Part shown: positions 3,036 to 36,385 of the stretch, piece by piece
Position numbering within the stretch: position 1 is the first letter of the stretch
How the letters are laid out: every line of letters starts with the position of its first letter
Source of the DNA: an uncultured Bacteroidales bacterium
GTDB lineage: Bacteria; Bacteroidota; Bacteroidia; Bacteroidales; Paludibacteraceae
Assembly (NCBI GenBank): GCA_903911085.1
Contig: CAIWCC010000186.1
Location: forward strand, 1-64,000
Direction of reading: 5' to 3'
Length of the DNA: 64,000 nt
Notes under the pieces: generated by a model
Database searches by the model: none
What the model was told of the DNA's origin: nothing
Seen by the model: the letters and a program-made list of their open reading frames with translations, nothing else
Position numbers and translations under genes: made by a program

Positions 3036-3222
3036 GTCACATGTATGTGAATGTTCCGCCGAGGGGTAAAAAGTACTTTCACACTGTTGTGATTGTTCCG
3101 CCGAGGGCAAAAAAGTACAATCACACCCTTGTGAATGGTTCGCCGAGTGCTCAGAAATACTTTCACACACTTGTGAAAGCTTCGCCGAGGGCTAAATGCT
3201 ACTTTCACAAGTATGTGACGCT
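3036..3222 (-). repeat. Tandem hairpin array A (five 42-bp-type units, CACA/TGTG version)
   Basis: Read on the minus strand, five hairpins of the TCACA-n4-TGTGA type are separated by four linkers: GCATTTAGCCCTCGGCGAAGC, then ATTTCTGAGCACTCGGCGAACC, then TTTTTTGCCCTCGGCGGAAC, then TTTTTACCCCTCGGCGGAAC in slightly shortened form. Full units are 42 bp. The order and identity of units match array E at 36187-36385 almost base for base, so the array moves as a block. Short open frames run through it on both strands only because 42 is divisible by three. Confidence 0.9.
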
Positions 3223-3240
3223 GGTTTTTTTGTAGTTTCT

Positions 3241-3345
3241 TTCTCCTGCTTAGCTTGAATTTGTTTTTTAGTATAAATGTAGCGTTTCAAACGCTTCACC
3301 ATTAACTCTGAGTTAAGAACGAGGGGGAGAGTGCGATAGGCGTTT
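3241..3345 (-). repeat. R module of the hairpin-array element (next to array A)
   Basis: On the minus strand this reads CTCCCCCTCGTTC, AGTTAATGGTGAAGCG, TTTGAAACGCTACATTTATAC, then CAAATTCAAGC and a GGAGAAAG-type end. Related copies are at 5870-5960, 32967-33067, 36388-36490 and 37328-37420. Here it precedes array A, whereas elsewhere it follows its array, so the modules can be rearranged. The segment 2847-3035 carries only the acetylesterase promoter. Confidence 0.75.
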
Positions 3346-3357
3346 CGACTTTTTATT

Positions 3358-3993
3358 TTACAGTTTAATTCCAAAATCCAAATTGAAAACCATTGTTTTA
3401 TCTTTTATCGTAAAGGGAGGATTCATATATTCTCCATTATTGTCAACTATCGAATTAAAACTTAAATTGTTTTTCCATGCAAGTCCAAGTATAATTTTCC
3501 CAAAATCATACTGAATTCCTACCCCATACCTCAAACCATAATTGATTTTATTCATCATTCCCAACCTGTCATAATCATCAAATGCACTGCTGAATTGTAA
3601 TAAATAATCTAGTCTTGGGCCTATTACCAGATAAGGTGTAAAATTATTGAAGTCATATTTAATTTTTACCTTCGTGTCAAATGTCAGGTAACTTAAATCT
3701 AATTTAATTGCTCCAGTGCCCCAATCATATTTTGCTCCTTTTTGATAAAATCCAATTCCTGTTGATAAGGCAAAGAACCTACTTTCCAAATAATCAATAT
3801 CAATCCCGCTATAAAATCCATTGGTTTTTCGAGTCCCTGTATCAATTAAAGTTGGGAGTGAATTGCCTAGATCAGCTTCCCTTTGTAAATTGGAACTTGT
3901 AATACCATAATTAAAACTAATTCTGTCAACAATCTGACCATTTAAAATTGTCACATGAATTAAAAAGGCAATGATTAGTAATTTTTTTTTCAT
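3358..3993 (-). CDS. Outer-membrane beta-barrel protein (PorT-like), 211 aa
   Basis: The protein begins MKKKLLIIAFLIHVTILNGQ, a clear signal peptide. I take the ATG at 3993 as the start because an 18-codon longer frame has no signal character at its N-terminus. The mature part shows alternating hydrophobic and polar strands with repeated patterns such as YLVIGPRLDYLLQF and GLRYGVGIQYDFGK. It ends in a short strand (FNLDFGIKL), typical of eight-stranded outer-membrane barrels of the PorT / OMP_b-brl families. These are structural porin-like or assembly-associated proteins with no defined substrate. It is flanked by repeats on both sides and appears monocistronic. Confidence 0.75.
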   Translation of the reverse strand: MKKKLLIIAFLIHVTILNGQIVDRISFNYGITSSNLQREADLGNSLPTLIDTGTRKTNGFYSGIDIDYLESRFFALSTGIGFYQKGAKYDWGTGAIKLDLSYLTFDTKVKIKYDFNNFTPYLVIGPRLDYLLQFSSAFDDYDRLGMMNKINYGLRYGVGIQYDFGKIILGLAWKNNLSFNSIVDNNGEYMNPPFTIKDKTMVFNLDFGIKL

Positions 3994-4119
3994 TTCTAAT
4001 TGTTTTATGTTTGAACGCTTGTCTGCCGAGTAAAAGTTTAAATACAATAGAATTCAGTCGTTACAGTGTCGTTTATTTAAATCCTAAAGCGGACTGTACC
4101 GTCAAAGTTTTTTCTTTCT

Positions 4120-4258
4120 CTTCGTTCTCCTAGCGTATTCATGCGTAGTTTAAGTTCGGCGTATGGCTCCAGCCTACTTTCCTTCCCACCCGACATAGCG
4201 AAAGACGTATGCCGAACTAAAAGACCGTCACACTACGCTCAACGAGGTCGTGCCGACC
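4120..4258 (-). repeat. Partial copy of the ~190-bp inverted-repeat element
   Basis: This matches, on the minus strand, the elements at 33546-33733, 34291-34484 and 35988-36172. It keeps CATAGCGAAAGACG, CCCACCCGACATAGCG-type and GCCGAACTTAAACTACGC blocks. It lacks the internal AT-rich hairpin with TTTCC/GGAAA arms. It lies directly downstream of the 265-aa secreted protein. No coding capacity is evident. Confidence 0.7.
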
Positions 4259-4284
4259 GCAGGAAGCATAAGTATTAGCAGTAG

Positions 4285-5082
4285 TTATTTGTTCATCCTT
4301 TTCATTAATTCGAATTCAGTTTCAGCCATATTTATTATCCAGGAGTATTCAGACTTTATTCCATTGTCCTTAAATTTTTCGAAGTATTCTTTTAACTCAA
4401 CAATTTCTTTTTGTGCTTTATCAATTTCATTATTCAATAAATAAAATTCTCCCAGATATAACTTTGCATATAGTACCTCTGTCTTGTCTGAGTTTTTGTT
4501 ATTTAAAATTTCGTAAATTAAACCAAGTACTTTGGAATCATTTTCGAAGTTGTCATCAAATAAATAATAACCAATCAATTTGTGCGGAGCCTCTACTTTT
4601 ATTTTCTTTTCTGTTTCCTCTGAATATAAATCATTTCTATACACTAATTTCTCTCCTTTGATAAAATACCATCTTACGAGAGAATTCTTTTCATCAGGTT
4701 TCTTTGTAAAGATTCTTTCTTTAACGTGGAAATTTGTTCGTAAAACCAATACCGTTCCAATTTTTGTATTTTCATAGATAGAAAAGATTAGTGTTGCTTT
4801 CGGTCCTTCTTTCTGTTTTATCAAAACTCCGACTAAATTTTCTTTATCTGTTCTATAAAGAGCAGTATTTATTATATTCAACATTTCATTGATGTCAAGT
4901 TGTTTATATAAATCTGTCATGAAAAATGCGTTTGCAAAAAGTTGATGTACAAAATAAAACTTATTTATTCCATAAGTATTTGTGGAATCTTGTTTCGTAA
5001 CTCGAATCTTTATTTTGTCTTGTGCAAATGCATTATAAGACATCAAAAATAAAACTGATAGTAATAGAATCTTTTTCATCAT
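4285..5082 (-). CDS. Secreted hypothetical protein, 265 aa
   Basis: The sequence starting MMKKILLLSVLFLMSYNAFA has a strong signal peptide, so I place the start at 5082 (or 5079). The frame stays open for 45 more codons, but that part lies inside a structured intergenic repeat and looks non-coding. The mature protein has no family I can name. Its C-terminal third (about 180-260) is lysine- and glutamate-rich and probably helical, resembling a tetratricopeptide-type pair (YAKLYLGEFYLLNNEIDKAQ). It may be a TPR-containing periplasmic protein. It stands alone between repeats. Confidence 0.7.
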   Translation of the reverse strand: MMKKILLLSVLFLMSYNAFAQDKIKIRVTKQDSTNTYGINKFYFVHQLFANAFFMTDLYKQLDINEMLNIINTALYRTDKENLVGVLIKQKEGPKATLIFSIYENTKIGTVLVLRTNFHVKERIFTKKPDEKNSLVRWYFIKGEKLVYRNDLYSEETEKKIKVEAPHKLIGYYLFDDNFENDSKVLGLIYEILNNKNSDKTEVLYAKLYLGEFYLLNNEIDKAQKEIVELKEYFEKFKDNGIKSEYSWIINMAETEFELMKRMNK

Positions 5083-5089
5083 ATTTTTT

Positions 5090-5275
5090 TTAAAATTGGC
5101 GCTAACAACTAAAGCTATGGGCATTTGGCGGTTTGCGGAAGTATTCGCTGTCGTGGAGCGACAAAATGAATTGAAAATCAGCGAAGCTAATGCGGGAGCA
5201 AAACTGCCGGAATGCACGTCAGCCAGCCAATAAGCATAGATGCGTGTTTTAGCGGTTCGTTGTTTTTTCTGTCGT
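5090..5275. repeat. Long imperfect cruciform, attC-like in shape
   Basis: The sequence from CTAACAAC (about 5102) to GCGGTTCGTTGTT (about 5266) can fold back on itself. GGCGGTTTGC near 5129 pairs with GCAAAACTGCC near 5200, TTCGCTG pairs with CAGCGAA, and AAC/GTT triplets lie at the outer ends. The whole spans roughly 150 bases with bulges, the architecture of integron attC sites. The canonical core heptamer is not perfect, and no integrase is in the window. It sits just upstream of the secreted 265-aa gene and downstream of the YdeI-like gene. Confidence 0.35.
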
Positions 5276-5300
5276 ATGTTACAGTCTGCCTTTGTTCGGG

Positions 5301-5864
5301 TTAATAGTATTTATCAATTCCACCAAATCCTAAAATAAGTTTGTTGTCTCGTGTTTTTTGAATAAAGTTAGTCAGTCGTTTGGAAAATTCATCTGGTCGT
5401 TTTCTTGCACTATCAATGTACGCAATTCGTATTCGTTTGTATGGCTCTGAAAATTTTATATAGTTATTCCAAACTGTTTTGTCTTTCTTTATTTCATCTA
5501 ATATGTCTAATGGAAAAATGTACTCTTTTGAAATAATTTCTTCAACAGTTTTAAGAAATGAATGATGAATCAGATTATTTTCGGCTAACCATTTCAGTCG
5601 TTCTTTATTGGGTTGTGAATAACTGCTCTTGGCTTGTCGGACAGTAAATCGCTGAATGGTGTGGTCTTTGTCAAGGGTTTTATTTGTGCTATCAATCCAA
5701 CCAAAACATAGGGCTTCTTCAACCGCATCATTGTACAGAATGCGTTGTTCGCCAGTTGATTTTTTTGCATAAATCAGCCAAACTTCGTTCTCAATGTTGA
5801 AATTAAGTTGAAGCCAATTTCTCCATTCAGCTCTTGTTTTTATGCTAAGTGTCTTTTCTGTCAT
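5301..5864 (-). CDS. YdeI/OmpD-associated (OmdA) family protein
   Basis: This 187-aa cytosolic protein has no signal peptide. It contains the family's hallmark EALCFGWIDS (about 47-56), followed by the conserved QRFTVRQAKSSYSQPNKERLKW region and a C-terminal OmdA-like segment ending in a basic helix (RKRPDEFSKRLTNFIQKT). Members are annotated as YdeI or bacteriocin-protection proteins; their biochemical role is not settled. I start at the ATG at 5864. A GTG three codons upstream is possible. The purine-rich GAAGGTGAGAAAG in front of the ATG is the end of the adjacent R repeat module, so the mobile repeat appears to supply the leader of this gene. Confidence 0.82.
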   Translation of the reverse strand: MTEKTLSIKTRAEWRNWLQLNFNIENEVWLIYAKKSTGEQRILYNDAVEEALCFGWIDSTNKTLDKDHTIQRFTVRQAKSSYSQPNKERLKWLAENNLIHHSFLKTVEEIISKEYIFPLDILDEIKKDKTVWNNYIKFSEPYKRIRIAYIDSARKRPDEFSKRLTNFIQKTRDNKLILGFGGIDKYY

Positions 5865-5869
5865 CTTTC

Positions 5870-5960
5870 TCACCTTCGTTTAAATTTGTATTTTAAGTAT
5901 AAATGTAGCGTTACAAACGCTTCTCCATTAACTACTCGTTTGCAAACGAGAGGGAGAATT
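5870..5960 (-). repeat. R module of the hairpin-array element (following array B)
   Basis: On the minus strand this reads TTCTCCCTCTCGTTTGCAAACGAG, AGTTAATGGAGAAGCG, TTTGTAACGC, TTTATAC, CAAATTTAAACGAAG, then GGTGAGAAAG. The CTCGTTTGCAAACGAG core is a perfect 16-nt palindrome. It lies between array B and the start codon of the YdeI-like gene at 5864. Confidence 0.85.
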
Positions 5961-5984
5961 GAAAAAAAATACCGTCTCATCATG

Positions 5985-6165
5985 GAGATTGTTCCACCGA
6001 GGGGTAAAAAGTACTTTCTCATCATGGAGAAAGCTTCGCCGAGGGCAAAAAAGTACAATCACACCCTTGTGAATGGTTCGCCGAGTGCTCAGAAATACTT
6101 TCACACACTTGTGAAAGCTTTGCCTAGGGCTAAATGCTACTTTCACAAGTATGTGACGCTATTTT
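5985..6165 (-). repeat. Tandem hairpin array B (chimeric: CACA units then CTCC units)
   Basis: On the minus strand the first three hairpins are of the TCACA/TGTGA type and the last two of the TCTCC-ATGAT-GAGA type. The linkers follow the same order as in arrays A and E. A short remnant of the L module (AAACCTTATAAAAACCTTTTG) lies at about 6172-6192. The array is therefore a natural recombinant of two hairpin versions. Confidence 0.9.
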
Positions 6166-6217
6166 TTTTGTGTAAAACCTTATAAAAACCTTTTGATTAT
6201 GGGACTCAAGTTTTCGT

Positions 6218-6385
6218 GCATATATTGATTAGCAGAGCAAAGTTTGGCACTGTTGGGTGGGATTTTTTTTCAATCCCACCCTATGTACTACGAGGAACAA
6301 ACGGTCAGCGTAAGCTAATTGTATTCCGATAAACAAAAGTTTTTTTTAAGAACGGATTAAAAATCCTTCTAAGAATACAAGACTT
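6218..6385 (+). repeat. S repeat (TATATTGATTAGC...GGGTGGGATT hairpin), full copy
   Basis: The element starts TGCATATATTGATTAGCAGAGCAAAG and contains a strong hairpin GGGTGGGATT/AATCCCACCC with a T-rich loop at about 6255-6281. It continues to CCGATAAACAAAAG and ATCCTTCTAAGAATACAAG. A second full copy is at 35195-35336, with partial copies near 41478 and 43404. It lies in the gap after the BspA-like gene on the minus strand and could act as its terminator. Confidence 0.75.
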
Positions 6386-6399
6386 TTCTTTTCGTATGG

Positions 6400-8226
6400 T
6401 TACAATATTACCTTAAAAGTTTTGCTTGAAGTTTTTACCAAATATGAAGCATTTTTTTGTACTCCAATTGTCATGCGTCCACCTTCTGATTTGATGGTTT
6501 GTATTTGCTTGCCATCAATGGTATAAAGTATTACTTTCTCTCCTTGATATGTGCCTTCGATAATGATTTTGGAAGAGGCAGTATACACTTTTACACTGGC
6601 GTTGATTGACTCCTCGGTTATTTCGTTTGTGATATTTCTTTTTATAATATTTCCAGGGAAACTGCTATACCAATCTGTACTTGCTTTGTAGGCAGTAAGT
6701 GCTATATCAGTTGGCACATATACATCAGTAATTGAAGTTACTAAGTTGAAACAATAACTTCCTAACGTTGGTGGTGTTGGGTTTAAGCAATATATCGTTT
6801 TTAGACCATAGCATTCAGAAAATGAAAAATTCCCTATGCTGGTTAGCTTAGCAGGGAAGGTTAAAGTCGTGATGCCCGAGCAATACGAAAAAGCCGAACT
6901 TTCTATTTTAATAAGAGAAGTGGGGAATGTGATGTCGGTAATACGGGAACAATTTGAAAATGCATAATTTCCGATGGTTGTAACGGTATTTGGAACAATA
7001 TAATTGCCCTGCTTTCCTGCTGGGTACTGAATTATTTTAGTTTGATTTTTGTTAAATATTACACCATTTAAAGAGGAAATGAATAGATTGGTTTCAGGGA
7101 CAGTAAATTCCGAAATTCCAAAACATTCACTAAAAGCAGAACTTTCAATTGTTGTAACGGAATTAGGAACAATATAATTACCTGGCTTCCCTGCGGGATA
7201 TTGAATTAATCTAGTTTGATTCTTGTTAAATAACACACCATCTAATGAAGAATATAATTGATTAGTTTCAGGAATAATAAATTCAGTAAAATTTGAGCAA
7301 CCAGAGAAAGCTGAACTCCCGATTGAGGAAAGTGAGCTTGAAATAGTAAGAGTACTAATATGCGAACAACCAGAAAATGCATATGGTCCGATATTGATAA
7401 CGGAGGTTGGCAAGATATAATTACCAAGTTTTCCAGCAGGATACTGAATTAAGGTTGTTTGATTTTTGTCAAATAGAACTCCATTTAAAGATGAATAATT
7501 TAGAATTGTTTCAGGGATAATAAATTCAGTAAGAGAAGAGCAATTGGAAAAAGCATAATCTCCAATGCTTGTCAGAGAAATGGGAAAGGTAAATGAACTA
7601 ATATTGGAACAGTGTTCAAAGGCCGACAATCCGATGCTAACCACAGAGGTTGGAAAAGTCACATTGCCACTAATACTTGAGCATTTTAAAAATGCACAAA
7701 GTCCAATGCTATTAAGACTTGTCGGAAGTATGAGATTAGTAATACCTGAACATGAAAAGAAAGCAGCATCTCCTATATTTGTAATGCCATTTGGAAGTGA
7801 CAATGTCCCAGTAATTCCAGAGCAATAAAAAAATGCGTAATTTGCTATGCTTGTCAAAGAACTGGGAAGAGTAACTGTGCTAATTGAGGTTTTACCTTTG
7901 CCTGTATAGAGGTCGAAAAATGAAAAGCTAGGCATTTCATTTGCTTTATAGGTCGTTGAGTTCGGGTCTGTTCCAACTCCTGAATATTCCTTTATGTTTG
8001 AACCACTGAGATCCAAAACAGCAAGTAGCGACATTTCATCACGCATTGTTTTTATATCGCTGGCGTCAATATTGCCTGTTATCGTAAGGTTCGTTACTGT
8101 GTTCAGATAAGCACTAGCTAATGTATGTAAAGTGCCAGGAGTGTTTACATCTAAGGTTTGGGAAACTTGCGCTGATGCCATAAGTGCTACCAGAACGAAA
8201 ACTAAGAGAGATAATTTTTTTTTCAT
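6400..8226 (-). CDS. Secreted BspA-type leucine-rich repeat protein with T9SS-like C-terminus
   Basis: The product is 608 aa with a signal peptide (MKKKLSLLVFVLVALMASAQ). Residues ~95-510 are BspA/LRR_5 repeats of the form SLTSIGDYAFSNCSSLTEF. They are interrupted three times by a longer insert (SLNGVLFDKNQTTLIQYPAGK and variants), which is a common pattern in BspA proteins. The last ~70 residues (VKVYTASSKIIIEG through TFKVIL) resemble a T9SS sorting domain. Such proteins are cell-surface adhesion or binding proteins without catalytic activity. It is flanked by hairpin arrays on both sides and has no obvious operon partner. A role in attachment to substrate particles is inference. Confidence 0.85.
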   Translation of the reverse strand: MKKKLSLLVFVLVALMASAQVSQTLDVNTPGTLHTLASAYLNTVTNLTITGNIDASDIKTMRDEMSLLAVLDLSGSNIKEYSGVGTDPNSTTYKANEMPSFSFFDLYTGKGKTSISTVTLPSSLTSIANYAFFYCSGITGTLSLPNGITNIGDAAFFSCSGITNLILPTSLNSIGLCAFLKCSSISGNVTFPTSVVSIGLSAFEHCSNISSFTFPISLTSIGDYAFSNCSSLTEFIIPETILNYSSLNGVLFDKNQTTLIQYPAGKLGNYILPTSVINIGPYAFSGCSHISTLTISSSLSSIGSSAFSGCSNFTEFIIPETNQLYSSLDGVLFNKNQTRLIQYPAGKPGNYIVPNSVTTIESSAFSECFGISEFTVPETNLFISSLNGVIFNKNQTKIIQYPAGKQGNYIVPNTVTTIGNYAFSNCSRITDITFPTSLIKIESSAFSYCSGITTLTFPAKLTSIGNFSFSECYGLKTIYCLNPTPPTLGSYCFNLVTSITDVYVPTDIALTAYKASTDWYSSFPGNIIKRNITNEITEESINASVKVYTASSKIIIEGTYQGEKVILYTIDGKQIQTIKSEGGRMTIGVQKNASYLVKTSSKTFKVIL

Positions 8227-8504
8227 AATTCTTTTCTATTTTAGTATGAGTAATTTTAATCAATATAATTTTTTTTTTACAGACTTTCGTATTTTTTGCC
8301 GCTTGTGCCTAACCCCGAAATAATAGCATCTCCATAATGTTATTGCCCATATATCCACATTAGTTTAGTTTTTTATTGTACATACCGGCCGTATATCGAA
8401 ATATGTGTAGTCACATTTTTTATTGCAGCGCAAATATAAACTTTTTTAATGGTTAAAGAAAATAATATATTAAACTCTGGAAAATCAATCTATTTATATG
8501 GCAA

Positions 8505-8698
8505 AAATACCGTCTCATCATGGAGATTGTTCCACCGAGGGGTAAAAAGTACTTTCTCATCGTGGAGATTGTTACGCCGAGTGCTAAAAAGTACATTCTC
8601 ATCATGGAGATTGTAACGCCGAGGGCAAAAAAGTACTTTCTCATCATGGAGAAAGCTTCGCCGAGGGGTAAATGCTACTTTCTCAAGTAGGAGACGCT
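8505..8698 (-). repeat. Tandem hairpin array C (CTC/GAG version)
   Basis: On the minus strand four TCTCC-ATGAT-GAGA type hairpins and one divergent first hairpin (GTCTCCTACTTGAGAAAG) are joined by the GCCCTCGGCG linkers. All inner hairpins here are of the CTC version, as in array D. No R module follows. The stretch 8227-8504, upstream of the BspA-like gene, shows nothing recognisable. Confidence 0.9.
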
Positions 8699-8699
8699 G

Positions 8700-8835
8700 T
8701 ATTTTTGTAATAAACCCCATATAAACCTTTTGAAAACTGGACTTTCGGAAATTGAAAGCACTAAGAGATGTTGTTTTATTTCTAAAACAGGTCAAAGATA
8801 AGGTTAAATTTTAATATTGCGACTATCAATTTTAC
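8700..8835 (-). repeat. L module of the hairpin-array element (array C)
   Basis: This matches 32635-32765 in reverse orientation. Shared blocks include AAACCCCATATAAACC, GATGTTGTTTTATT, CTAAAAC, GGTCAAAGATAAGGTTAA and the AT-rich end. In both places L sits immediately outside the first unit of the array, so L plus array form one composite repeat. Confidence 0.8.
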
Positions 8836-8907
8836 AATAATTAAAAAATATTTCTTTGAAGTTGGAAGTGTATCTATATAAAGGTTTTTGAACTGGTTAT
8901 AACAAAT

Positions 8908-8955
8908 AGAAAATCCCCTTAAGAACTTACTAACTTGTAAGTTTTTAAGGGGATT
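8908..8955 (-). terminator. Intrinsic terminator after the first GH74 gene
   Basis: Nearly perfect 19-nt arms (AATCCCCTTAAGAACTTAC at 8912-8930 and its partner at 8937-8955) enclose a 6-nt loop. On the minus strand the stem ends in GGGGATTTTC, with the U-tract supplied by the AATT and TTTTC run. It lies 26 bases beyond the stop of the GH74 gene. Confidence 0.85.
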
Positions 8956-8980
8956 GTTTGTTGAACTATTTGTTATTAAA

Positions 8981-11407: not shown

Positions 11408-11465
11408 TGTGTATTATTAATTGAAAATTGATTGTGTTGGTTAATTGATAGAGAATATTATAATG

Positions 11466-11957: not shown

Positions 11958-12017
11958 ATTCAGTAAATATTTTCAGACATTATAGCTTTCCTATTACTTG
12001 ATATGAATCGTCATAAT

Positions 12018-27051: not shown

Positions 27052-27093
27052 TAATTATCAAATTGCTATTTTAAGGAAGATTTATTTTTTATC

Positions 27094-27739: not shown

Positions 27740-30109
27740 ATGACAAATCACTTTCGTTTTTTATCGAGAAAGCTATTTTTATTAGTTTTTGTAATTCAAG
27801 TAGTGTTCAGTAATTTATCTGCCCAGCAGTATAAACTATGGTACGACAAACCCGCACAACGTTGGACCGAAGCATTGCCTATTGGTAACGGTCGACTTGG
27901 TGCAATGATTTACGGTGGCACCGAAAAAGAAACCATTCAGTTCAACGAAGAAACCGTTTGGTCGGGTCAGCCGCACGATTATGCACACAAAGGTGCTTAT
28001 CAGTTTCTGGATTCTATTCGCAACCTGCTTTGGGCAGGTAAGCAGAAAGAGGCTCATAGCCTTGGTGACAAGGAATTTATGTCTCAACCGCTTGGCCAAC
28101 AATGCTACCAACCATTTGGAGATGTGCTGTTGAATTTTCCTGGACATGCTACTGCTACCAATTTTTATCGCGATTTAACCTTGAGCAATGCCTTATCATC
28201 TGTTAGCTACGAAGTTGCTGGTGTGAAATACAAACGTGAAGTTTTTGCATCTTTTCCCGACCAAGCAATTTTTATCAAAATTACAGCAGATAAGCCCAAA
28301 TCGTTGAGTTTTTCAGTTTCAATGGCTTGTCCACACAAACAGAATACGATTACTGCAAATGGTAATCAATTGGTTTTGAAAGGAAAATCTAATAATTACT
28401 ATAGCACTAGTTATCCCGAAAGTAAAATTACTTTCGAGTCCCGACTGCTGGTTCAGAACGAGGGTGGAAAACTTACTATTAATCAAAATTCAATTAACGT
28501 TGAACAAGCTACTAGCGTAGTGTTGAAATTAGTGGCGGCTACCAATTTTGTGAATTATAAAGATATAAGTGCCAATCCTTCTGCTCGTTGCGATGCATAT
28601 CAACAAAAGGTTACTGGTGAAAATTACGAAATTGCACGCGCTAAACATATTGCCGATTATCAAAAACTTTATAATCGTACCACCATCGATTTGGGCAAAA
28701 GCGAACTATCGAACCGTCCCACCAATATACGTTTGAATACCTACAAAGACGATAAAGACCCTAATTTGGTGTCGATTCTTTATCAGTACGGTCGCTATTT
28801 GCTTATTTCTTCTTCACGCCCCGGAACTCAACCAGCCAATTTACAAGGAATTTGGAATGATAAACTTTTTCCACCTTGGGATAGCAAATATACAACCAAC
28901 ATCAATACCGAGATGAATTATTGGTTGGCCGAAATGACCAATCTGTCGGAATGTACGCAACCACTTTTCGAAATGCTAAAAGACTTGTCGGTTACTGGAC
29001 AAAATGTGGCGAAAGAGCATTACAACCAAAAAGGATGGGTTCTTCATCACAATACCGATATCTGGCGGGGAGCTGCACCTATAAATGCGTCTAATCATGG
29101 TATTTGGATGGGTGGTAGCGGTTGGTTATGCGAACATCTATGGTGGCATTACGAATATACCGGCGACAAGAAATTCCTGAGCCAAACGGCTTATCCTGTT
29201 ATGAAAGGTGCTGCTGAATTTTACGCTGGTTTTTTGGTTCCCGACCCAAAACACCCTGAGTGGTTGGTAAGCGGACCAAGCAACAGCCCTGAAAATGGCG
29301 GGTTGGTAATGGGGCCAACCATGGATCATCAGATTATTCGTAATCTTTTTGCCAATACCATTGATGCGGCAAAAATACTTGGAGTGGATACAAAATTTAG
29401 TTCCATGTTGAAGGAAAAAATGGCTAAAATTGCACCCAATCAGATTGGAAAATACGGACAACTTCAGGAATGGGTGGAAGACAAAGACGATCCGAAAAGT
29501 CAGCACCGCCATGTTTCGCATTTATGGGGATTGCATCCGGGCAACGAAATTTCGCCACTCACTACTCCCGAATTGGCAGAGGCTTGCCGTGTTACATTAA
29601 AACACCGTGGCGACGAAGGTACAGGTTGGTCGCGTGCATGGAAAATCAACTTTTGGGCACGTTTGCTCGATGGCGATCATGCATACTTGATTCTTAATAA
29701 CCTTATTCTGCCATCTCTTACACCAGATGCCGTAAATATGAATGAAGGTGGTGGACTTTATCCAAACTTGTTTGATGCGCATCCACCTTTCCAAATTGAT
29801 GGTAATTTCGGCGCAACTTCGGGCATTACCGAAATGTTGCTTCAAACACATTTACGCGACAAAAACGGCGATTATTTCCTCGATATTTTGCCTGCATTAC
29901 CAACAAAACTTGCCGATGGTAAAGTTACAGGCTTAATTGCTCGTGGTGGTTTTGGTGTAAGTATTGAATGGAAAAATGGTTCGTTGGTTGCTTTACAAGT
30001 TGTTTCAAAAAATGGAAATAAGTTGAATGTGAGATACAAAGGAAAAGTTGTAACTCAGAAAACAGAAAAAGCTAAAGTGTATAAATTTACATCGGTAAAC
30101 TTTAAATAA
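27740..30109 (+). CDS. GH95 alpha-L-fucosidase
   Basis: The ATG at 27740 gives 789 aa with a signal peptide (to LSAQQ); an upstream TTG frame is less likely. GH95 enzymes invert and typically release alpha-1,2-linked L-fucose (or L-galactose). The N-terminal beta-domain has [14 protein letters not shown] and [13 protein letters not shown]. The (alpha/alpha)6 domain has [11 protein letters not shown], whose two Asn (387, 389) match the Asn pair known to activate water in this family. It also has SPENG (Glu519, probable general acid) and FQIDGNFG (Asp687). All expected residues are present. The next gene, 42 bases on, is a divergent relative. Fucosylated xyloglucan side chains or AGP fucose are plausible substrates. 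Confidence 0.93.
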
Positions 30110-30150
30110 AATTCAAATTGAATACAAATTTTATAAATCAAAAACAGATT

Positions 30151-32466
30151 ATGAAGTCTCTTATTGCCTCTTCGGGGGCTAAGGGGCTTCTGTTTATTTT
30201 AGTACTGCTTCTGCCTTTCAACGCATTTTCTCAAACAGTTAATAAAATCGACTGGCCAAATTTCATGCAGCAGCACGATCTTATTTTTGAAGAATTGCCG
30301 TTGCAATGGAACGAAGGCGCTTTTGTGGGCAACGGACAAGTGGGAATGATGATGTATGCCACTATGAAAGACAACCGTATCGATTTTCATATTGGTCGAC
30401 AGGATGTGACTGACCACCGCAAATCGCCAGACAGAAAAACATCCTTGGGTGTGCCGGGTGCTTCGGTGTTGTTCGATTTTCCAAGGTTGGATATTGGTCG
30501 CATGGCGTTACGTCCGGTTGGAAAAATCCTTTCTGGTTCACTTCGTCAGGACTTGTGGAATGCCGAAATCCGCGGAACTATTGTTACCGATTTAGGCACA
30601 ATAACCCTCAGAGCCTATACGCCTTACGACAGAATGGTGAACGTAATTGAGTTGACTTCCACCGAAAAAAAAGATGGCAAACAAGTAAATTATGCATGGG
30701 AGTTTCGTCCGGGAAATCCGGCTTCGCCACGCATTCAGGTTTTTCCAACGAGCGATAAAACCTATGTAACCAATCCACAACCAGTATTGGGAACAGATAA
30801 AAACATTCACAGTTGTGTGCAATCATTATTGGCGGGGGGCGATTATGCAACCGTTTGGACAGAAAAGAAAACCGGAAAAACACAATCTACACTCTTTATT
30901 TCTACTGCCAACGAAGTTCCAGCTGCAAATAAATCGCTTGCTGTAGCAACAAAATCGGTGGTTGATGCATCCAAAACATCAACGCCTAAATTGCTAAAAC
31001 CGCATCGCGATTGGTGGCATGCCTTTTATCAAAAATCTTTTCTGAGTATTCCCGACGGGCAAATGGAATCGTTTTACTGGATTCAGATGTACAAAATGGC
31101 TTCTTGTTCACGTCCCGATGGTCCGGCATTGGATTTATTCGGTCCGTTTTTTCGCATTAGTCAATGGCCGGGTTTGTGGTGGAACCTCAACATTCAACTT
31201 ACTTACTGGAATGTGCTGCAAAGTAATCATTTGGAGCAAGGCGAAAATCTGATAACGCTGGTTGACGGGCAATTTGAATCGCTTTTAACTAAATTCGATA
31301 GTCAGAAGCTGGGCGATTTTACATGGACAATGCACAACTATTGGTTGCAACTCCGGTATGCTGGCAATTGGAAAACCGTAAATGATAAATGGCTTCCAAA
31401 AGCTATGCAGATTGCCAAACTGTACGAAAAACGGTTGACCAAAAATGCTGCCGGACAACTGGAAATGCAAGCCATGGAGTCGCCAGAATATGAAGGCTTT
31501 AAGATCTACAAAAATTCCAACTACAATATGGCTTTGTACCGCTGGCTGCTGGGTGCAATGATAGAATGTGCCGACAAAAATAATGTTAGCATGACCGAAA
31601 CAGCCCAATGGAAACAAACGCTGAAAGATTTGATTCCGCTTTCGACCAACGAAAACGGTTTGATGATTGGCAGTGAGCAAGCGTTGGACAAATCGCATCG
31701 TCATTATTCACATTTAATGAGTTTGTACCCCTTGTTTGTTTTGAACCCAGATGATGAAAAAGACAGGCTGCTAGTGGATAAATCTGTTGTGCATTGGCAC
31801 AAAATTGATGGTGGCAAAGAGCTTGCAGGTTACTCCTATACCGGTGCCGCATCACTTTATAATGCGTTGGGCAGAGGCAACGATGCTGAGAGTATTCTCC
31901 ATCATTTTCTGAATGGAAATATTGGTATTAGCGTGTTGCTTTCCAATACTTTTTATGTAGAATCCAATGGGTCGAATCCGGTAATTGAAACGCCGCTAAG
32001 TGCTGCCAATGCCATTTCGGAAATGTTGTTGCAAAGCTGGGGCGGTAAAATCCGCATTTTCCCCGCTATGCCCGACAAATGGAAGGAAGCATCGTTCGAA
32101 GATTTGCGTACGCAGGGTGCATTTTTGGTAAGTGCCAACCGAAGAAATGGCGCTACGCAATGGGTTTCCGTAAAAAGTCTGGCTGGCGAACCATGCGTAG
32201 TGAAAATTCCAGGTTGGGCAAAAGCCGTTCAGTACAACAAAGGCCGAAAAATTAGCATTTCAGCTTTGCCAAACAACGAATTTGCGCTGGATTTGAAAGC
32301 CAACGAAGAAGTGTTATTATTCCCCAACGAAAACACTCAACCGGCAGTTGTGGAGCCAATAATTCATAGTGCCGAAACACAAAACCTGTACGGATTGCGC
32401 AAAGGCAAGCACCTCAAATGGGATCAATCGTGGAAACTGCCCGAATATGTTATAGAGAAAAAATAA
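30151..32466 (+). CDS. Divergent GH95-related (alpha/alpha)6 glycoside hydrolase
   Basis: The ATG at 30151 gives 771 aa with a signal peptide (LLFILVLLLPFNAFSQ). The layout parallels the upstream GH95: an N-terminal beta-domain with GAFVGNGQVGMMMYAT, a helical catalytic domain with WWNLNIQLTYW (the Asn-x-Asn pair is kept), and MESPEYEGF (Glu kept). HRHYSHLMSLYP also corresponds to a GH95 block. The final motif differs: FQIDGNFG is replaced by VIETPLSAAN, so the conserved Asp is a Glu. It may cleave another sugar or linkage, for example L-galactose or an unusual fucoside. It is probably co-transcribed with the GH95 gene. I am sure of the fold family, not of the substrate. Confidence 0.8.
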   Translation: MKSLIASSGAKGLLFILVLLLPFNAFSQTVNKIDWPNFMQQHDLIFEELPLQWNEGAFVGNGQVGMMMYATMKDNRIDFHIGRQDVTDHRKSPDRKTSLGVPGASVLFDFPRLDIGRMALRPVGKILSGSLRQDLWNAEIRGTIVTDLGTITLRAYTPYDRMVNVIELTSTEKKDGKQVNYAWEFRPGNPASPRIQVFPTSDKTYVTNPQPVLGTDKNIHSCVQSLLAGGDYATVWTEKKTGKTQSTLFISTANEVPAANKSLAVATKSVVDASKTSTPKLLKPHRDWWHAFYQKSFLSIPDGQMESFYWIQMYKMASCSRPDGPALDLFGPFFRISQWPGLWWNLNIQLTYWNVLQSNHLEQGENLITLVDGQFESLLTKFDSQKLGDFTWTMHNYWLQLRYAGNWKTVNDKWLPKAMQIAKLYEKRLTKNAAGQLEMQAMESPEYEGFKIYKNSNYNMALYRWLLGAMIECADKNNVSMTETAQWKQTLKDLIPLSTNENGLMIGSEQALDKSHRHYSHLMSLYPLFVLNPDDEKDRLLVDKSVVHWHKIDGGKELAGYSYTGAASLYNALGRGNDAESILHHFLNGNIGISVLLSNTFYVESNGSNPVIETPLSAANAISEMLLQSWGGKIRIFPAMPDKWKEASFEDLRTQGAFLVSANRRNGATQWVSVKSLAGEPCVVKIPGWAKAVQYNKGRKISISALPNNEFALDLKANEEVLLFPNENTQPAVVEPIIHSAETQNLYGLRKGKHLKWDQSWKLPEYVIEKK

Positions 32467-32557
32467 TATCCGCGCTGTTTTTTTTGCAGTAAATGGATTA
32501 TTATGAAGCGCAAAATATCTAATCAGATCTATTTCAGATAAGATTTTATAATCGAAT

Positions 32558-32613
32558 AATACCAACAGTACATATAAAATGACTTTGAGTCACTTTTATG
32601 TACAGTTGGTATT
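32558..32613 (+). terminator. Long hairpin after the GH95 pair
   Basis: AATACCAACAGTACATATAA at the left pairs with TTATGTACAGTTGGTATT at the right, with an inner TGACT/AGTCA pairing. One A/A mismatch and one bulge interrupt an otherwise 24-nt stem. The bases after it are AT-rich (ATTTCATTTTTTT about 15 bases later). It is either the operon's terminator or a REP-like element. Confidence 0.6.
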
Positions 32614-32634
32614 AATAATATTATTTCATTTTTT

Positions 32635-32765
32635 TAAAATTAATAGTTACAATTCTAAAAATTAACCTTATCTTTGACCCGTTTTAGAATAAAAACAACA
32701 TCGCTCATCACTTTCAATTCCTGAAACTCCCGTTTTCAGACGGTTTAAATGGGGTTTAGACAAAA
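32635..32765 (+). repeat. L module of the hairpin-array element (array D)
   Basis: Homologous to the reverse complement of 8700-8835, sharing TTAACCTTATCTTTGACC, TTTTAGAATAAAAACAACATCG and GGTTTAAATGGGGTTTAGA blocks. It directly precedes array D. Confidence 0.8.
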
Positions 32766-32774
32766 AAAACAGCG

Positions 32775-32965
32775 TCTCCTGCTTGTGAAAGTAGCAATTA
32801 GCCCTCGGCGAAGCATTCTCCATGAGGAGAAAGTACTTTTTTGCCCTCGGCAGAACAATCTCCATGATGAGAAAGTACTTTTTTGCCCTCGGTGGAACAA
32901 TCTCCATGAGGAGAAAGTACTTTTTAGCCCTCGGCGGAACAATCTCCATGATGAGACGGCATTTT
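32775..32965 (+). repeat. Tandem hairpin array D (CTC/GAG version)
   Basis: Five hairpins: a hybrid first one (GTCTCCTGCTTGTGAAAG) and four of the TCTCCATGAKGAGA type. They are joined by the linkers GCAATTAGCCCTCGGCGAAGC, TTTTTTGCCCTCGGCAGAAC, TTTTTTGCCCTCGGTGGAAC and TTTTTAGCCCTCGGCGGAAC. The first hairpin joins a CTC left arm to a TGTG right arm, which leaves it poorly paired. The array is flanked by L on the left and R on the right, making this the only complete L-array-R element in the window. Confidence 0.92.
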
Positions 32966-32966
32966 T

Positions 32967-33067
32967 TTTCAATTCTCCCTCTCATTTGCAAACGAGGAGT
33001 TAATGGTGAAGCGTTTGTAACGCAATGATTATACTAAAAAGCAAATTCAAAACGTAGGGGAGAAAGA
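32967..33067 (+). repeat. R module of the hairpin-array element (array D)
   Basis: TTCTCCCTCTCATTTGCAAACGAGG, AGTTAATGGTGAAGCG, TTTGTAACGCAATG, TATACTAAAAAGCAAATTC and GTAGGGGAGAAAG follow array D directly. Confidence 0.85.
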
Positions 33068-33074
33068 AATAAAT

Positions 33075-33135
33075 CCCAACAACGAAGTAGCATTATTTGT
33101 ACATTTAAAGAATATATCCGGTGGGACGGGTGAGA
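33075..33135 (+). repeat. K repeat (CCCAACAACGAAGTAGCATT), copy 1
   Basis: The block from CCCAACAACGAAGTAGCATT through ATATCCGGTGGGACGGGTGAG recurs almost identically at 35388-35449. Both copies lie a short way upstream of a small gene. No fold or coding function is recognised. Confidence 0.75.
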
Positions 33136-33162
33136 CAATGTAACGGAAGGGAGATAAAATTT

Positions 33163-33522
33163 ATGGCAATGGCAATTAAAAAAGGAAAATTTGTTGTTAA
33201 GAAGTATTTTTCTTTAAGCAAGAGTCAAATCTTTTGGTTAATATTTTCGGTATTGTTTATTTGGTATATAATTATTAGGCCTGATTATAACATCAGTAGA
33301 CTTCGAGATGACGGAAAAGAAGTAAAAGGCTGGATTTACAGAAAATCAGGAGTTGGATCAAAGGGTACAATTCGATGCTTTTATAATTTTGAAGTTAAAG
33401 GTAAGGATTATGAAGGATTTTATGATAATAATAAATTGAGTCAAGGAGATAGCCTTGAAATTATTTATTATACAAAAGATCCAAGTTTAAATCAAGCAAA
33501 GCAATTTGTATTAGACTATTAA
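33163..33522 (+). CDS. Small membrane protein, DUF3592-like, 119 aa
   Basis: I choose the ATG at 33163, because the frame upstream (from a GTG at 33121) runs through the K repeat. A basic N-terminus is followed by one membrane span (FWLIFSVLFIWYIII, about residues 23-37). A soluble domain follows with the DUF3592-like pattern of alternating strands: VKGWIYRKSGVGSKG, CFYNFEVKGKDYEGF and GDSLEIIYYTKDPS. Function is unknown. It resembles the 148-aa protein at 34689 in the soluble part (KIYSGSAGF..GDSIKVYYLPDYS), so the two are probably distant paralogues. Confidence 0.65.
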   Translation: MAMAIKKGKFVVKKYFSLSKSQIFWLIFSVLFIWYIIIRPDYNISRLRDDGKEVKGWIYRKSGVGSKGTIRCFYNFEVKGKDYEGFYDNNKLSQGDSLEIIYYTKDPSLNQAKQFVLDY

Positions 33523-33545
33523 AAAAATGAAAGATCCTCAACCCC

Positions 33546-33733
33546 TGTTCAGCATAGCGTAGTTCAGTCGTCTTTTTGGTTCGGCGTCTTTCGCTATGTC
33601 GGGTGGGAAGGAAAGCTCCACTTTCCTTATTCAAATATAATATGGAAAGCAAAGCTTTCCTTCTAGCTGCGACGTAGGCAAAGAGCCATACGCCGAACTT
33701 TAACTACGCAGGATTACGCTACGGGGAACGAGG
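33546..33733 (+). repeat. ~190-bp inverted-repeat element, copy M1
   Basis: It begins CTGTTCAGCATAGCGTAG and ends CTACGGGGAACGAGG. The ends are inverted (GTTC/GAAC plus TAGCGTAG/CTACG). The middle has a TTTCC/GGAAAG hairpin around TTATTCAAATATAATA. It is near-identical to 34291-34484 and 35988-36172, with partial relatives at 4120, 35150 and 42178. Confidence 0.85.
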
Positions 33734-33808
33734 AATCAAACGACATAAAATCAATTAAAAGACACACAGTAACGGCTAAAAAGCAAAAACACTAAGACAT
33801 TAACAATT

Positions 33809-34273
33809 GTGAAGAAGAAATTAATAATTGGAATATCATTAACCGTAATAATTATAACAACAATGGGATTTTTCGACTTATTTGCTACAAAACAGAATTC
33901 AGACAAAAAGTATGTAACTGAAGAAGCGTACAAGAAAAACAAAGAAAATCAATTAAACATGACACCTAAAACTCTTAAACAGCTTAGAGATTTAGGAGTA
34001 ACCGAATCAAAAGAATTGAAACTTGAGTACTTTTTTTACACTAACTCTGTTGACAAAGCCAAGAAACTTGCTGATGAAATTCAAAAAGAGAATTATAAAG
34101 TTGAATATGGTAAATCAGCAGGAGATAAGAAACTTTTTGTTATAACTGGTTGGACAACTAAAATGATTATGTCTGACACCGTAGTAATTGATTGGACTAA
34201 TAAAATGTGTGACTTGGGTTATGAATTTGACTGTGATTTTGACGGTTGGGGGACAGAACCTGACCAAGAATGA
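33809..34273 (+). CDS. Membrane-anchored RraB-like protein (regulator of RNase E family), GTG start
   Basis: The 154-aa product starts at a GTG (KKKLIIGISLTVIIITTMGFF) with a single N-terminal membrane span or uncleaved signal. Residues ~68-150 match the RraB fold: LEYFFYTNSVDKAKKLADEI, YKVEYGKSAG, LFVITGWTTKMIMS and the family's C-terminal EYDGWGTEPD-like FDGWGTEPDQ. RraB of Enterobacteria binds and modulates RNase E. A membrane-tethered version in Bacteroidota may do something else. It lies between two copies of the 190-bp repeat and looks like a passenger gene. Confidence 0.8.
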   Translation: MKKKLIIGISLTVIIITTMGFFDLFATKQNSDKKYVTEEAYKKNKENQLNMTPKTLKQLRDLGVTESKELKLEYFFYTNSVDKAKKLADEIQKENYKVEYGKSAGDKKLFVITGWTTKMIMSDTVVIDWTNKMCDLGYEFDCDFDGWGTEPDQE

Positions 34274-34290
34274 AATAAAAAACCACCCTT

Positions 34291-34484
34291 GTTCGGCATA
34301 GCGTAGTTCAGTCGTCTTTTTGTTCGGAATAGCGTCTTTCGCTATGTCGGGTGGGAAGAAAAGCTCCGCTTTCCATATTCAAATATAATATGGAAAGCAA
34401 AACTTTCCTTCTAGCTGCGACGTAGGCTGGAGCCATACGACGCCGAACTTAAACTACGCAGGATTTCGCTACGGGGAACGAGGG
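34291..34484 (+). repeat. ~190-bp inverted-repeat element, copy M2
   Basis: From CCTTGTTCGGCATAGCGTAG to CTACGGGGAACGAGGG. The termini CCCTTGTTC and GAACGAGGG are inverted copies. The interior is as in M1, including the AT-rich hairpin. Confidence 0.85.
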
Positions 34485-34573
34485 TTGCTCATATTTTGGT
34501 GTTAGCAGCAAGCCAAAAAAAAGAAAGAAGAAACGAATTCCATAAAATCAGCCGAAATTAAAAATACAGCATC

Positions 34574-34681
34574 TTGACTTTAGATCAATATATCAACAAC
34601 ATTAACCAACGTTACAAACTTGGAAATGCTATCAAACAAAACTATCTTAACGACTTACAGAAAGTATTGTTCCCAAAATAG
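34574..34681 (+). pseudogene. N-terminal scrap of a restriction-modification methylase-like gene
   Basis: A 35-codon frame starting TTG reads LTLDQYINNINQRYKLGNA and continues IKQNYLNDLQKVLFPK before a stop. From memory, large N-6 DNA methylase / type I-S-P-like R-M proteins of Bacteroidota begin with a similar YINxINxRYKxGNATEHTxRGDLQ segment. Here only this piece remains, and the downstream gene at 34689 is unrelated. I read it as a decayed remnant. It could also be a very small gene, but it lacks a convincing start. Confidence 0.35.
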
Positions 34682-34688
34682 AAAATAA

Positions 34689-35135
34689 ATGAAACGTAAA
34701 CCAATATACAAATTAATAGTTTCTGGAGTTATTATAATATTGATTATACTTATTCAAATAAATGGTACGAAGAATGATGTATATGTCAGAAAACATGGCT
34801 TATTGACCAAAGCTAAAGTTGAAAATATATATGGAAGAACTTCAACAGTACAAGTAAGTATTAATGATAAAATATACTCTGGAAGTGCTGGCTTTAGGGG
34901 GAATGTAGGTGATAGCATAAAAGTTTATTATCTTCCGGACTATTCAAATGTTATTCTAGAGGATGAGAGAGTTTCTTATTTTCAATTTATATTTATGGCC
35001 TGGTACTTCCTGATTGCAGTAGGTGTCGCATTACTTGGTTGGGGCATTGTCGGCGTTAAAGTGAAAATTAAACAACCACAGATTAAAACTACTAAGCGTG
35101 ACAGACGTAGAGAATTTAATAGAAATGGGAATTGA
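34689..35135 (+). CDS. Two-span membrane protein, DUF3592-like, 148 aa
   Basis: The protein has a membrane span at ~9-25 (LIVSGVIIILIILIQIN) and another at ~97-120 (FIFMAWYFLIAVGVALLGWGIVG). Between them is a soluble segment with TKAKVENIYGRTSTVQVSI and GDSIKVYYLPDYSNVIL, the DUF3592 pattern. The cytosolic tail is strongly basic (KTTKRDRRREFNRNGN). Function is unknown. It begins 7 bases after the R-M scrap and is followed by repeats. Confidence 0.7.
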   Translation: MKRKPIYKLIVSGVIIILIILIQINGTKNDVYVRKHGLLTKAKVENIYGRTSTVQVSINDKIYSGSAGFRGNVGDSIKVYYLPDYSNVILEDERVSYFQFIFMAWYFLIAVGVALLGWGIVGVKVKIKQPQIKTTKRDRRREFNRNGN

Positions 35136-35149
35136 GTCTCAGTTCGACG

Positions 35150-35188
35150 TAGCGTAGTTTAGTCGTCTTTTAGTTCGGCATAGCGCCT
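35150..35188 (+). repeat. Left-end fragment of the ~190-bp element
   Basis: GTTCGACGTAGCGTAGTTTAG, TCGTC and GTTCGGCATAGCG match the first 40 bases of M1-M3. It then switches to the S repeat, so this is a truncated copy. Confidence 0.55.
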
Positions 35189-35194
35189 TGTCCA

Positions 35195-35336
35195 CGTGGA
35201 TATATTGATTAGTTGAGCAAAGTTTGGCACTGTTGGGTGGGATTTATTTCTAATCCCACCCTATGTACTATGAGGAATTGCATTCCGATAAACAAAAGTT
35301 TTTTAAGAACGGATTAAAAATCTAAGAATACAAGAG
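35195..35336 (+). repeat. S repeat, second full copy
   Basis: It starts GTGGATATATTGATTAGTTG, carries the GGGTGGGATT/AATCCCACCC hairpin at about 35235-35261, and ends CTAAGAATACAAG. It matches 6218-6385 except for a short deletion. Confidence 0.75.
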
Positions 35337-35387
35337 TTGGGATTAGAAATAATTAGCTCCGAATACCGAGTCGCTGACAAATAGTTC

Positions 35388-35449
35388 CCAACAACGAAGT
35401 AGCATTATTTGTACATTTTAAGAATATATCCGGGGGGACGAGGGACAAC
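35388..35449 (+). repeat. K repeat, copy 2
   Basis: CCCAACAACGAAGTAGCATT through AATATATCCGGGGGGACGAGG. It is near-identical to 33075-33135 and lies 43 bases upstream of the META-like gene. Confidence 0.75.
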
Positions 35450-35491
35450 TTATTAGCATTTGATTATAATATACAAAACAAGAAAAACAAT

Positions 35492-35929
35492 ATGAAGAAC
35501 AAATCAACTTTACTTGTACTTGCATTATTGACATTTGGACTATGTCAACAACTTACATCACAAACTTTAAATGGATATTGGAGTTTCATCTGTTATTCAG
35601 ACATTATAACTGGAAAACAAGATTGTATGAATATAAAAAACGAATCAGAAACAGTTTCACTCGAATTTAAAGACAATGGAAAAATTGGGAAAATGTCTGG
35701 TCATACATATGTAAACATTGTTGATGGCGATTATACCATTAGTGAGAATAATAAAATTAAAGTCAAAAACTTTGGTGGGACAAAAGTAGGTGAATTGTAT
35801 TTTAAATATGATTTTTGGCATACAATTAGTCAATCAAGCTCATTTAAATTTAATGGTGACACTTTGGTTATATTGTATGACAATGACACAAAAGCAATGA
35901 AATTTATACAACTTACAAAAAAGAAATAA
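35492..35929 (+). CDS. Secreted META/lipocalin-like small protein, 145 aa
   Basis: A signal peptide (MKNKSTLLVLALLTFGLCQQ) is followed by a compact beta-rich domain. Elements are LNGYWSFICYSD, VSLEFKDNGKIGKMSGHTYVNIVDGDYTIS, IKVKNFGGTKVGE and the C-terminal FNGDTLVILYDND. The arrangement (Trp near the start, Gly-rich middle, late GDTLxL strand) is that of META/HslJ-like or lipocalin-like proteins. It probably acts in the periplasm; the ligand is unknown. Confidence 0.7.
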   Translation: MKNKSTLLVLALLTFGLCQQLTSQTLNGYWSFICYSDIITGKQDCMNIKNESETVSLEFKDNGKIGKMSGHTYVNIVDGDYTISENNKIKVKNFGGTKVGELYFKYDFWHTISQSSSFKFNGDTLVILYDNDTKAMKFIQLTKKK

Positions 35930-35987
35930 AACAGAATTTCTTGATTGACATAAGCATAGATTCTGAAAAGAAAAGTCCTTGTCCTCT

Positions 35988-36172
35988 GTTCGGCATAGCG
36001 TAGTTCAGTCGTCTTTTTGGTTCGGCGTCTTTCGCTATGTCGGATGGGTAGCAAGGCTCTGCCTTGCATATTCAAATATAATATGGAAAGTAAAGCTTTC
36101 CTTCTAGCTGCGACGTAGGTTGGTGCCATACGCCGAACTTTAACTACGCAGGATTACGCTACTGGGAACAGA
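35988..36172 (+). repeat. ~190-bp inverted-repeat element, copy M3
   Basis: From CTGTTCGGCATAGCGTAG to GCTACTGGGAACAGAG. Here both ends read CTGTTC/GAACAG and are again perfectly inverted, so the termini have changed together relative to M1 and M2. Confidence 0.85.
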
Positions 36173-36186
36173 GATAGTTACCAAAA

Positions 36187-36385
36187 ATAGCGTCACATAC
36201 TTGTGAAAGTATCATTTAGCCCTCGGCGAAGCTTTCACATGTGTGTGAAAGTATTTCTGAGCACTCAGCGAACCAATCACAAGGGTGTGATTGTACTTTT
36301 TTGCCCTCGGCGGAACAATCACAACAGTGTGAAAGTACTTTTTACCCCTCGGCGGAACATTCACATACGTGTGACGGTGTTTTTG
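36187..36385 (+). repeat. Tandem hairpin array E (CACA/TGTG version)
   Basis: Five hairpins (GTCACATACTTGTGAAAG, TTTCACATGTGTGTGAAAG, AATCACAAGGGTGTGATT, AATCACAACAGTGTGAAAG, ATTCACATACGTGTGACG) are separated by the same four ordered linkers as in array A. It is followed directly by an R module and starts 15 bases after element M3. Confidence 0.92.

Follow-up and report, generated by a model that had tools for sequence, protein, structure and literature searches.

Phased palindrome arrays in an uncultured Bacteroidales bacterium and their association with DUF6261 genes

Introduction

Helically phased arrays of the operator or iteron type (parC, iterons, multi-operator promoters) place several sites on one face of the DNA beside the gene that is to be controlled. 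In type III toxin-antitoxin loci (ToxIN, CptIN, TenpIN) a single gene is immediately preceded by a few locus-specific tandem repeats, each about 40 nt long, and the units of repetitive extragenic palindromes (REPs) with their REP-associated tyrosine transposases (RAYTs) stand at variable spacing. The subject of this report is a tandem array of short palindromes, present five times (arrays A to E) in a 64,000-nucleotide stretch, hereafter the window, from an uncultured Bacteroidales bacterium of the Paludibacteraceae (assembly GCA_903911085.1, contig CAIWCC010000186.1, here C186, positions 1 to 64,000). It belongs to a widespread and apparently undescribed kind of array that often lies before genes of the DUF6261 family (PF19775) in Bacteroidales. 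DUF6261 is reportedly mentioned in a paper on daptomycin resistance in streptococci.

Like phased operators and iterons, the arrays set several sites on one DNA face, with dyads phased at whole helical turns, beside a gene they would control. They are unlike them in that the half-site changes by locus though one protein family follows, with up to 21 such genes per genome, and in that no recurrent partner gene stands alongside. With type III toxin-antitoxin loci they share locus-specific tandem repeats just before one gene; however, their stems are not substituted in the manner of RNA stems, and the one DUF6261 protein tested, that of contig C71 of the same genome, matches no ToxN-, CptN- or TenpN-type toxin model. 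From REP/RAYT systems they differ in their fixed spacing, only 41-43 bp and doubles. Two published repeats come closer in habit. GTAG- and CGTC-tagged REPs are short intergenic palindromes with 8-bp stems and 4-5-nt loops, and CGTC repeats are known in Bacteroidetes, also without a transposase (available portion of PMC3733652). The arrays of our genome are likewise short intergenic palindromes and begin CCGTC, but the tag is not repeated at each unit: it marks the first unit of most arrays (CAGTC instead in the C71 array) and unit 3 of the array on contig C239, while the other units begin CTTTC, CAATC, CATTC or, once, GTTTC. Moreover, unlike CGTC REPs, the arrays repeat at a constant 41-42 bp, with about five units all in the same direction, and are tied to DUF6261. 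BrickBuilt elements, which are minisatellites of the miniature inverted-repeat transposable element (MITE) type in Porphyromonas, are like our arrays intergenic tandem repeats in Bacteroidales, and they have promoter activity; their units are 23 nt, and neither palindromes nor DUF6261 are mentioned in the available portion of PMC4596501. No such array is described in the literature covered on DUF6261, on tandem or palindromic repeats of Bacteroidetes and Bacteroidales, on type III systems and on BrickBuilt, a coverage that excluded most subscription journals, nor in the available portions of PMC3733652, PMC4596501 and PMC5771137.

Results and discussion

Each window array consists of five palindromes at a period of exactly 42 bp, as an earlier reading of the window from its letters alone (the sequence-only reading) had claimed: A at 3034..3221, B at 5972..6159 and C at 8510..8697, all on the forward strand, and D at 32772..32959 and E at 36190..36377 on the reverse strand. 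Tandem Repeats Finder also detects all five, and a scan for phased palindromes of the same stem is positive in 5 of 129 window stretches, each being one of the arrays, and in 1 of 294 stretches of control DNA (139 kb from other organisms). Two stem types occur: type 1, TCACA-n4-TGTGA, in A and E, which are 95% identical across 212 bp; and type 2, TCTCA-n4-GGAGA, in all five palindromes of C and in D. The sequence-only reading was right that there are two versions; its second, TCTCC-n-GAGA, is read here as TCTCA/GGAGA. Array B is a recombinant, type 2 in units 1-2 and type 1 in units 3-5, and unit 5, the last, of D is half-converted (TCACA..GGAGA). Between the types a single core pair per hairpin is swapped (A-T to T-A), and the innermost pair of type 2 has mostly turned into an A-G mismatch. 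No indel occurs within the 44 units of this genome.

Covariation inside the window is real but thin. Across the eight full arrays of the genome, two-sided changes account for 18 of 320 cells, more than in any of 500 column shuffles (mean 9.0), which ignore relatedness. Most of them come from a single pair in each hairpin of two array types, and pairing between neighboring units fits equally well (21 cells; 80.6 vs 80.9% of cells paired). Hence the claim that both arms change together in most units holds for one compensated core pair per hairpin between types and is otherwise overstated. Since the exchange concerns about one pair per hairpin, B is recombinant and unit 5 of D is half-converted, the window alone comes close to what the sequence-only reading had named as its refutation, arm changes explained by a single recombination event; it is the different stems of relatives that rescue the observation.

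These relatives were found by a search of the genome and its genus with a covariance model built from three array units, a kind of search that the sequence-only reading had proposed. Further arrays, with other stems, came up in nine other genus genomes at E<1e-3 (at E<=1, in 12 of 48 genus genomes, our own included). Their period is 42 bp or near, and their inner stem bases are CCA, CGA, AGA, TCA or TCC (ACA again in one); the stems are nearly uniform across the units of one array, and the linkers vary, many with a GACCCCTCGG core. The idea of sequence replaced with symmetry preserved is supported: the palindromes look constrained, their stems being exchanged while the symmetry is kept. All ten genus genomes with a model match at E<1e-3 also hold DUF6261, which 31 of the 48 have (145 PF19775 matches, up to 21 per genome), and some of the arrays in relatives directly precede a DUF6261 gene. 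One locus (L088, 1292-1688) has two five-unit arrays in tandem in a single intergenic stretch, with stems CCGA and CCCA. Searches at the level of primary sequence recovered little. A BLAST-type DNA search of the genus matched our own genome only (1 of 48); the exact linker pattern gave single matches in 3 of 59 other genomes and 18 single matches in the genome_contigs set, none with an array, and no match in viral_contigs; and phages and plasmids gave no array match in a DNA-level search. No Rfam family matches over the window at gathering score, nor at E<=1 for positions 2900-8900, in keeping with the view that the arrays resemble no nameable repeat class.

To measure the association with DUF6261, we looked in the 600 nt that precede the ATG and scored as an array four or more palindromes of the same stem spaced by 41-43 bp. 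The genus set comprised 111 loci, that on our own C71 included, or 110 distinct genes (L116 and L143 are one gene); it omits 35 of the 145 matches, of which 31 were the weakest ones, and one stronger match among those omitted, G063:C212, has an array (L091). An upstream array is present in 71 of the 110 distinct genes, compared with 4 of 111 loci in the 600 nt after the gene, 0 of 111 shuffles, and 7 of 604 stretches taken from elsewhere in these loci. In 64 of the 71 the array ends 54-163 nt before the ATG. Our own DUF6261 gene on contig C63 was counted as array-less, although an array does sit further upstream. Across the order, DUF6261 occurs in 15 of 149 genomes, from 15 genera; among 27 loci taken from 73 matches in 14 other genera, 18 have an upstream array, and none has one downstream (0/27) or after shuffling (0/27). 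In Prevotella nigrescens FDAARGOS_1486, the gene of a DUF6261 family protein comes with five palindromes of the form TGCCGA-n3-TCGGCA; there the annotated start falls inside the palindrome array (L252, 3724-3907), so the gene start is probably annotated too early. DUF6261 loci have no recurrent neighbor gene, the most frequent being found in 6 loci, and no DUF6261 gene was confirmed in viral contigs. A related open reading frame (ORF) lies just upstream of six array-less DUF6261 loci (L142, L149, L150, L196, L214, L215); that of L142 begins MKFVVSSTDLLSNLEAISRP.

The architecture of the arrays was determined on 89 arrays of this wider family. They have 4 to 9 units, five being commonest (36 of 89). 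An exact-period scan from 14 to 99 bp over 105 regions returned 41 bp in 28, 42 bp in 20 and 43 bp in one, every other period found being a double, which fits sites that share one face of B-DNA; among individual spacings in relatives, 41 bp is commonest (182 of 298). Dyad complementarity spans some 14-16 bp, and a weaker second dyad lies at the half period (.36/.35 vs about.26). Stems are uniform inside an array and differ between arrays; in the 37 arrays with linker identity below 65% the stems keep 87%, a figure inflated by the scan's demand for similar stems. The motif TAnnTTTG, which we take to be the Bacteroidetes promoter -7 box, is enriched at one position, -120 to -101 of the array start, where it occurs 18 times forward and once in reverse (0-7 in the other 20-nt bins). 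Counted by array, it lies at -125 to -95 before the array in 20 of 89, and between array and gene, 40-60 nt before the ATG, in 10 of 89, two of which have both positions.

Copies of the arrays lie elsewhere in the same genome (6.25 Mb in 269 contigs), on contigs C40, C71, C72, C90, C131, C146 and C239, and arrays A, B and E agree in the order of all four linker variants; both observations bear out the suggestion that whole arrays move. Arrays lie at 12 places in all; as the contigs concerned overlap at their ends by identical stretches of 88 or 136 bp, we count about nine arrays, of which that on C146 has four units, not five. Contig ends fall inside arrays on C40, C71, C72, C90, C131 and C239; the assembly thus breaks there, and array counts in draft genomes need care. 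Our genome has ten DUF6261 matches, none of them on C186, so the window arrays are orphan copies before other genes; the C71 copy lies directly before a DUF6261 gene. In 9 of 9 arrays of this genome the following gene is co-directional (two short array-overlapping ORFs being disregarded). The flanks of the window arrays are common to other arrays and to other dispersed repeats, and recombination or fragment copying is therefore the likely route of spread.

The explanation we favor, though we hold it tentatively and would put it just short of an even chance, is that the arrays are duplex, helically phased dyad operators near promoters that control the following gene through a dimeric protein, with DUF6261 as the candidate. 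About five dyad sites of 14-16 bp recur every 41-42 bp, or four helical turns, with a weaker dyad midway, at two turns, and this whole-turn spacing brings the sites to the same side of the helix. The arrays precede DUF6261 genes, with the start codon mostly 54-163 bp away, and a TAnnTTTG motif, where recognizable, usually lies 95-125 bp ahead of them. Each has its own half-site, nearly identical across its units. A dimeric DNA-binding protein might bind these sites cooperatively, and the resulting nucleoprotein block would control the following gene. The window arrays are orphan copies before other genes, which recombination or fragment copying would have spread together with their flanks. Of this picture, the array anatomy, the period, the half-period dyads, the link to DUF6261, the promoter motif enriched at one position and the lack of RNA-type substitutions are observed, whereas protein binding, the reader's identity, the regulatory effect and the cause of spread are inferred.

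The most serious competitor, which we nonetheless consider rather unlikely, is a leader RNA folded into a row of hairpins, which would control the gene behind it or be bound by that gene's product, like the RNA repeats of type III toxin-antitoxin loci. It must be kept as a rival because of the likely leader position of these locus-specific repeats just before one gene, the promoter motif that stands 95-125 bp ahead of 20 of the 89, the constant orientation in our genome, and the fold energy of arrays A and C, which is below that of shuffles (z -2.5 to -3.6). The substitutions speak otherwise. In 2623 stem pairs of the 89 arrays, G-T/T-G mismatches number 73 and A-C/C-A mismatches 84, so there is no wobble preference on either strand. 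Departures from an array's own consensus, counted after 51 stem positions with a non-pairing consensus were dropped, are one-sided in 179 cases; 13 double changes pair and 5 do not, with 10.3 doubles expected if changes were independent. Moreover, in 36 odd-centered arrays the two bases that flank the single central one are complementary in 0.66 of cases, a feature for which the scan did not select and which counts against a hairpin because no hairpin can form that pair. (In the 53 even-centered arrays the innermost pair is complementary at 0.29, about chance, which is no help in deciding.) To these are added the 41/42-bp phasing, the ten arrays that have a promoter motif on their gene side (two of them also have one ahead of the array), and the different repeats carried by near-identical proteins. 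The lack of wobble excess, the few compensated changes, the odd-centered symmetry and the phasing together favor sequence-specific recognition of duplex dyads. Folding of RNA or single-stranded DNA is accordingly disfavored, on these sequence patterns, as the cause of the palindromes, and the selection for such structure that the sequence-only reading proposed does not find support.

A second alternative, which we regard as improbable, is that the stems are functionless products of mutation, with template switching in replication perfecting palindromes and spreading one stem to neighboring units. This would account for uniform stems within an array and their fast turnover, and it suits both the recombinant and half-converted units of B and D and those arrays that are near-identical tandem repeats (L183 and L124, for example). 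It leaves unexplained the fixed period, the half-period dyads, the unit number, the position before DUF6261 over many genera, and the keeping of stems while linkers diverge. Slightly less probable still is a mobile palindromic repeat, either of the REP type, as a bacterial interspersed mosaic element (BIME), or a MITE, whose single-strand hairpin is recognized by a Y1/RAYT-type transposase. Whole arrays are indeed copied together with flanks, which are themselves repeats, the array ends form an imperfect inverted repeat, and our genome has seven Y1 transposase matches, three of them strong and each amid its own hairpin repeats. However, none of the 7 Y1 loci carries an array unit or any phased array, on which ground a RAYT-borne REP was rejected; the arrays are tied to DUF6261 across genera; and a fixed period is not known as a REP trait. 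A coding role, in which the arrays would specify a protein with 14-residue repeats, is hardly credible: one frame is open through most arrays of our genome, but stop codons interrupt it in E and in the final type 2 units of arrays C, C40 and C239, and the commonest spacing in relatives, 41 bp, is no multiple of 3, which already refutes this reading.

Returning to phased operators with DUF6261 as their reader, a number of observations count against them. Pairing is restored by 13 of the 18 double changes inside arrays; these are few but more than we would expect by chance, and give a slight hint of compensation. A promoter motif is recognizable at only 28 of the 89 arrays, with 61 having it in neither usual place, and where it precedes the array (20 of 89) the array would then be transcribed, which suits RNA too. 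No array was found at 39 of 110 loci, some of them with a truncated upstream region, and some detected arrays are AT-rich and possibly spurious (L132, L151, L212, L245, L251). When orphan stems were compared with DUF6261-linked stems of the same genome, the match went beyond chance only for type 1 (11 tested). As for the reader, one genome has two DUF6261 paralogues, 93% identical, with stems CGTAC and AATCC and related linkers, and no protein segment that tracks the stem stands out in DUF6261; for these reasons DUF6261 may not be the reader. In that same genome L120 and L163 both have the stem CGTAC, with different linkers, which speaks against strictly private addresses. Nor was a known DNA-binding domain or structural relative found for DUF6261: in the C71 protein only DUF6261 itself matches in Pfam, with no PDB or PADLOC match and no convincing NCBIfam match, and a 26-sequence profile gave no convincing PDB match. 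By a reading of its sequence DUF6261 would be a helical protein; it is poorly conserved, with a short basic R/K tail at the C terminus (by eye). Stem similarity is higher among proteins of more than 50% identity than among distant ones. Given that paralogue stems differ, CGTAC is reused and no segment tracks the stem, we would name the linked DUF6261 product as leading candidate only.

A bolder possibility, to which we give less credence than to phased operators as such, is that DUF6261 loci are self-addressed units. Each would carry about ten dyads in phase with the helix, and their half-site would serve as an address specific to the locus. This address would be rewritten in all units together and, in at least one paralogue pair, faster than protein or linkers, so that many differently addressed copies coexist in a genome. 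If true, address rewriting would need either targeted copying confined to the palindromes or selection against cross-reaction between addresses. Known repeat evolution hardly accounts for palindromes that turn over in concert and locus by locus while the linkers stay, and the co-evolution of tandem sites with a partner becomes directly testable. In any case, an uncharacterized multi-copy Bacteroidales family, found also in human oral Prevotella, is tied to a strict and checkable DNA architecture, the first functional lead for DUF6261.

Genes and other repeats around the arrays

The gene that follows array A, in the array's T orientation, is at 1431..2846 on the reverse strand and belongs to the sialic acid acetylesterase family (PF03629). 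Arrays B and C are likewise followed by reverse-strand genes, an OmdA/YdeI-like one (PF13376) at 5301..5873 and one for a BspA-type leucine-rich repeat protein (PF13306) at 6400..8226. After D and E come forward-strand genes at 33121..33522 (133 aa) and 36508..37290 (260 aa), both without a Pfam family. Around array C two flanking repeats were delimited, both on the reverse strand: RF1 (8700..8857), common to arrays C, D, C40 and C90, with a promoter-like TAnnTTTG motif that reads into the array; and LF1 (8309..8505), between array C and the gene at 6400-8226, which in whole or part also flanks the arrays of C71, C72 and C239.

A second dispersed palindromic repeat adjoins arrays A, B, D and E (window 3238-3333, 5864-5957, 32974-33067, 36397-36491 and 37330-37418). 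It recurs several times by a Y1 transposase fragment (L075, 1063-1402) and is therefore probably a REP family with its RAYT. At L072, L073 and L074, each of three Y1 transposase genes lies among hairpin repeats of its own, as would be the case for RAYTs. Between D and E, window 33121-36173 holds four small co-oriented ORFs of 133-154 aa in a cassette-like order, separated by repeats of about 190 bp (33541-33733, 34285-34483, 35983-36173), with a further repeat at 35195-35444. An integron cassette reading was rejected, since none of the 13 matches to the integron integrase model TIGR02249 in our draft genome is above cut-off. Downstream of the window, L059 13592-13913 is a tandem array with self-matches at multiples of 21 bp.

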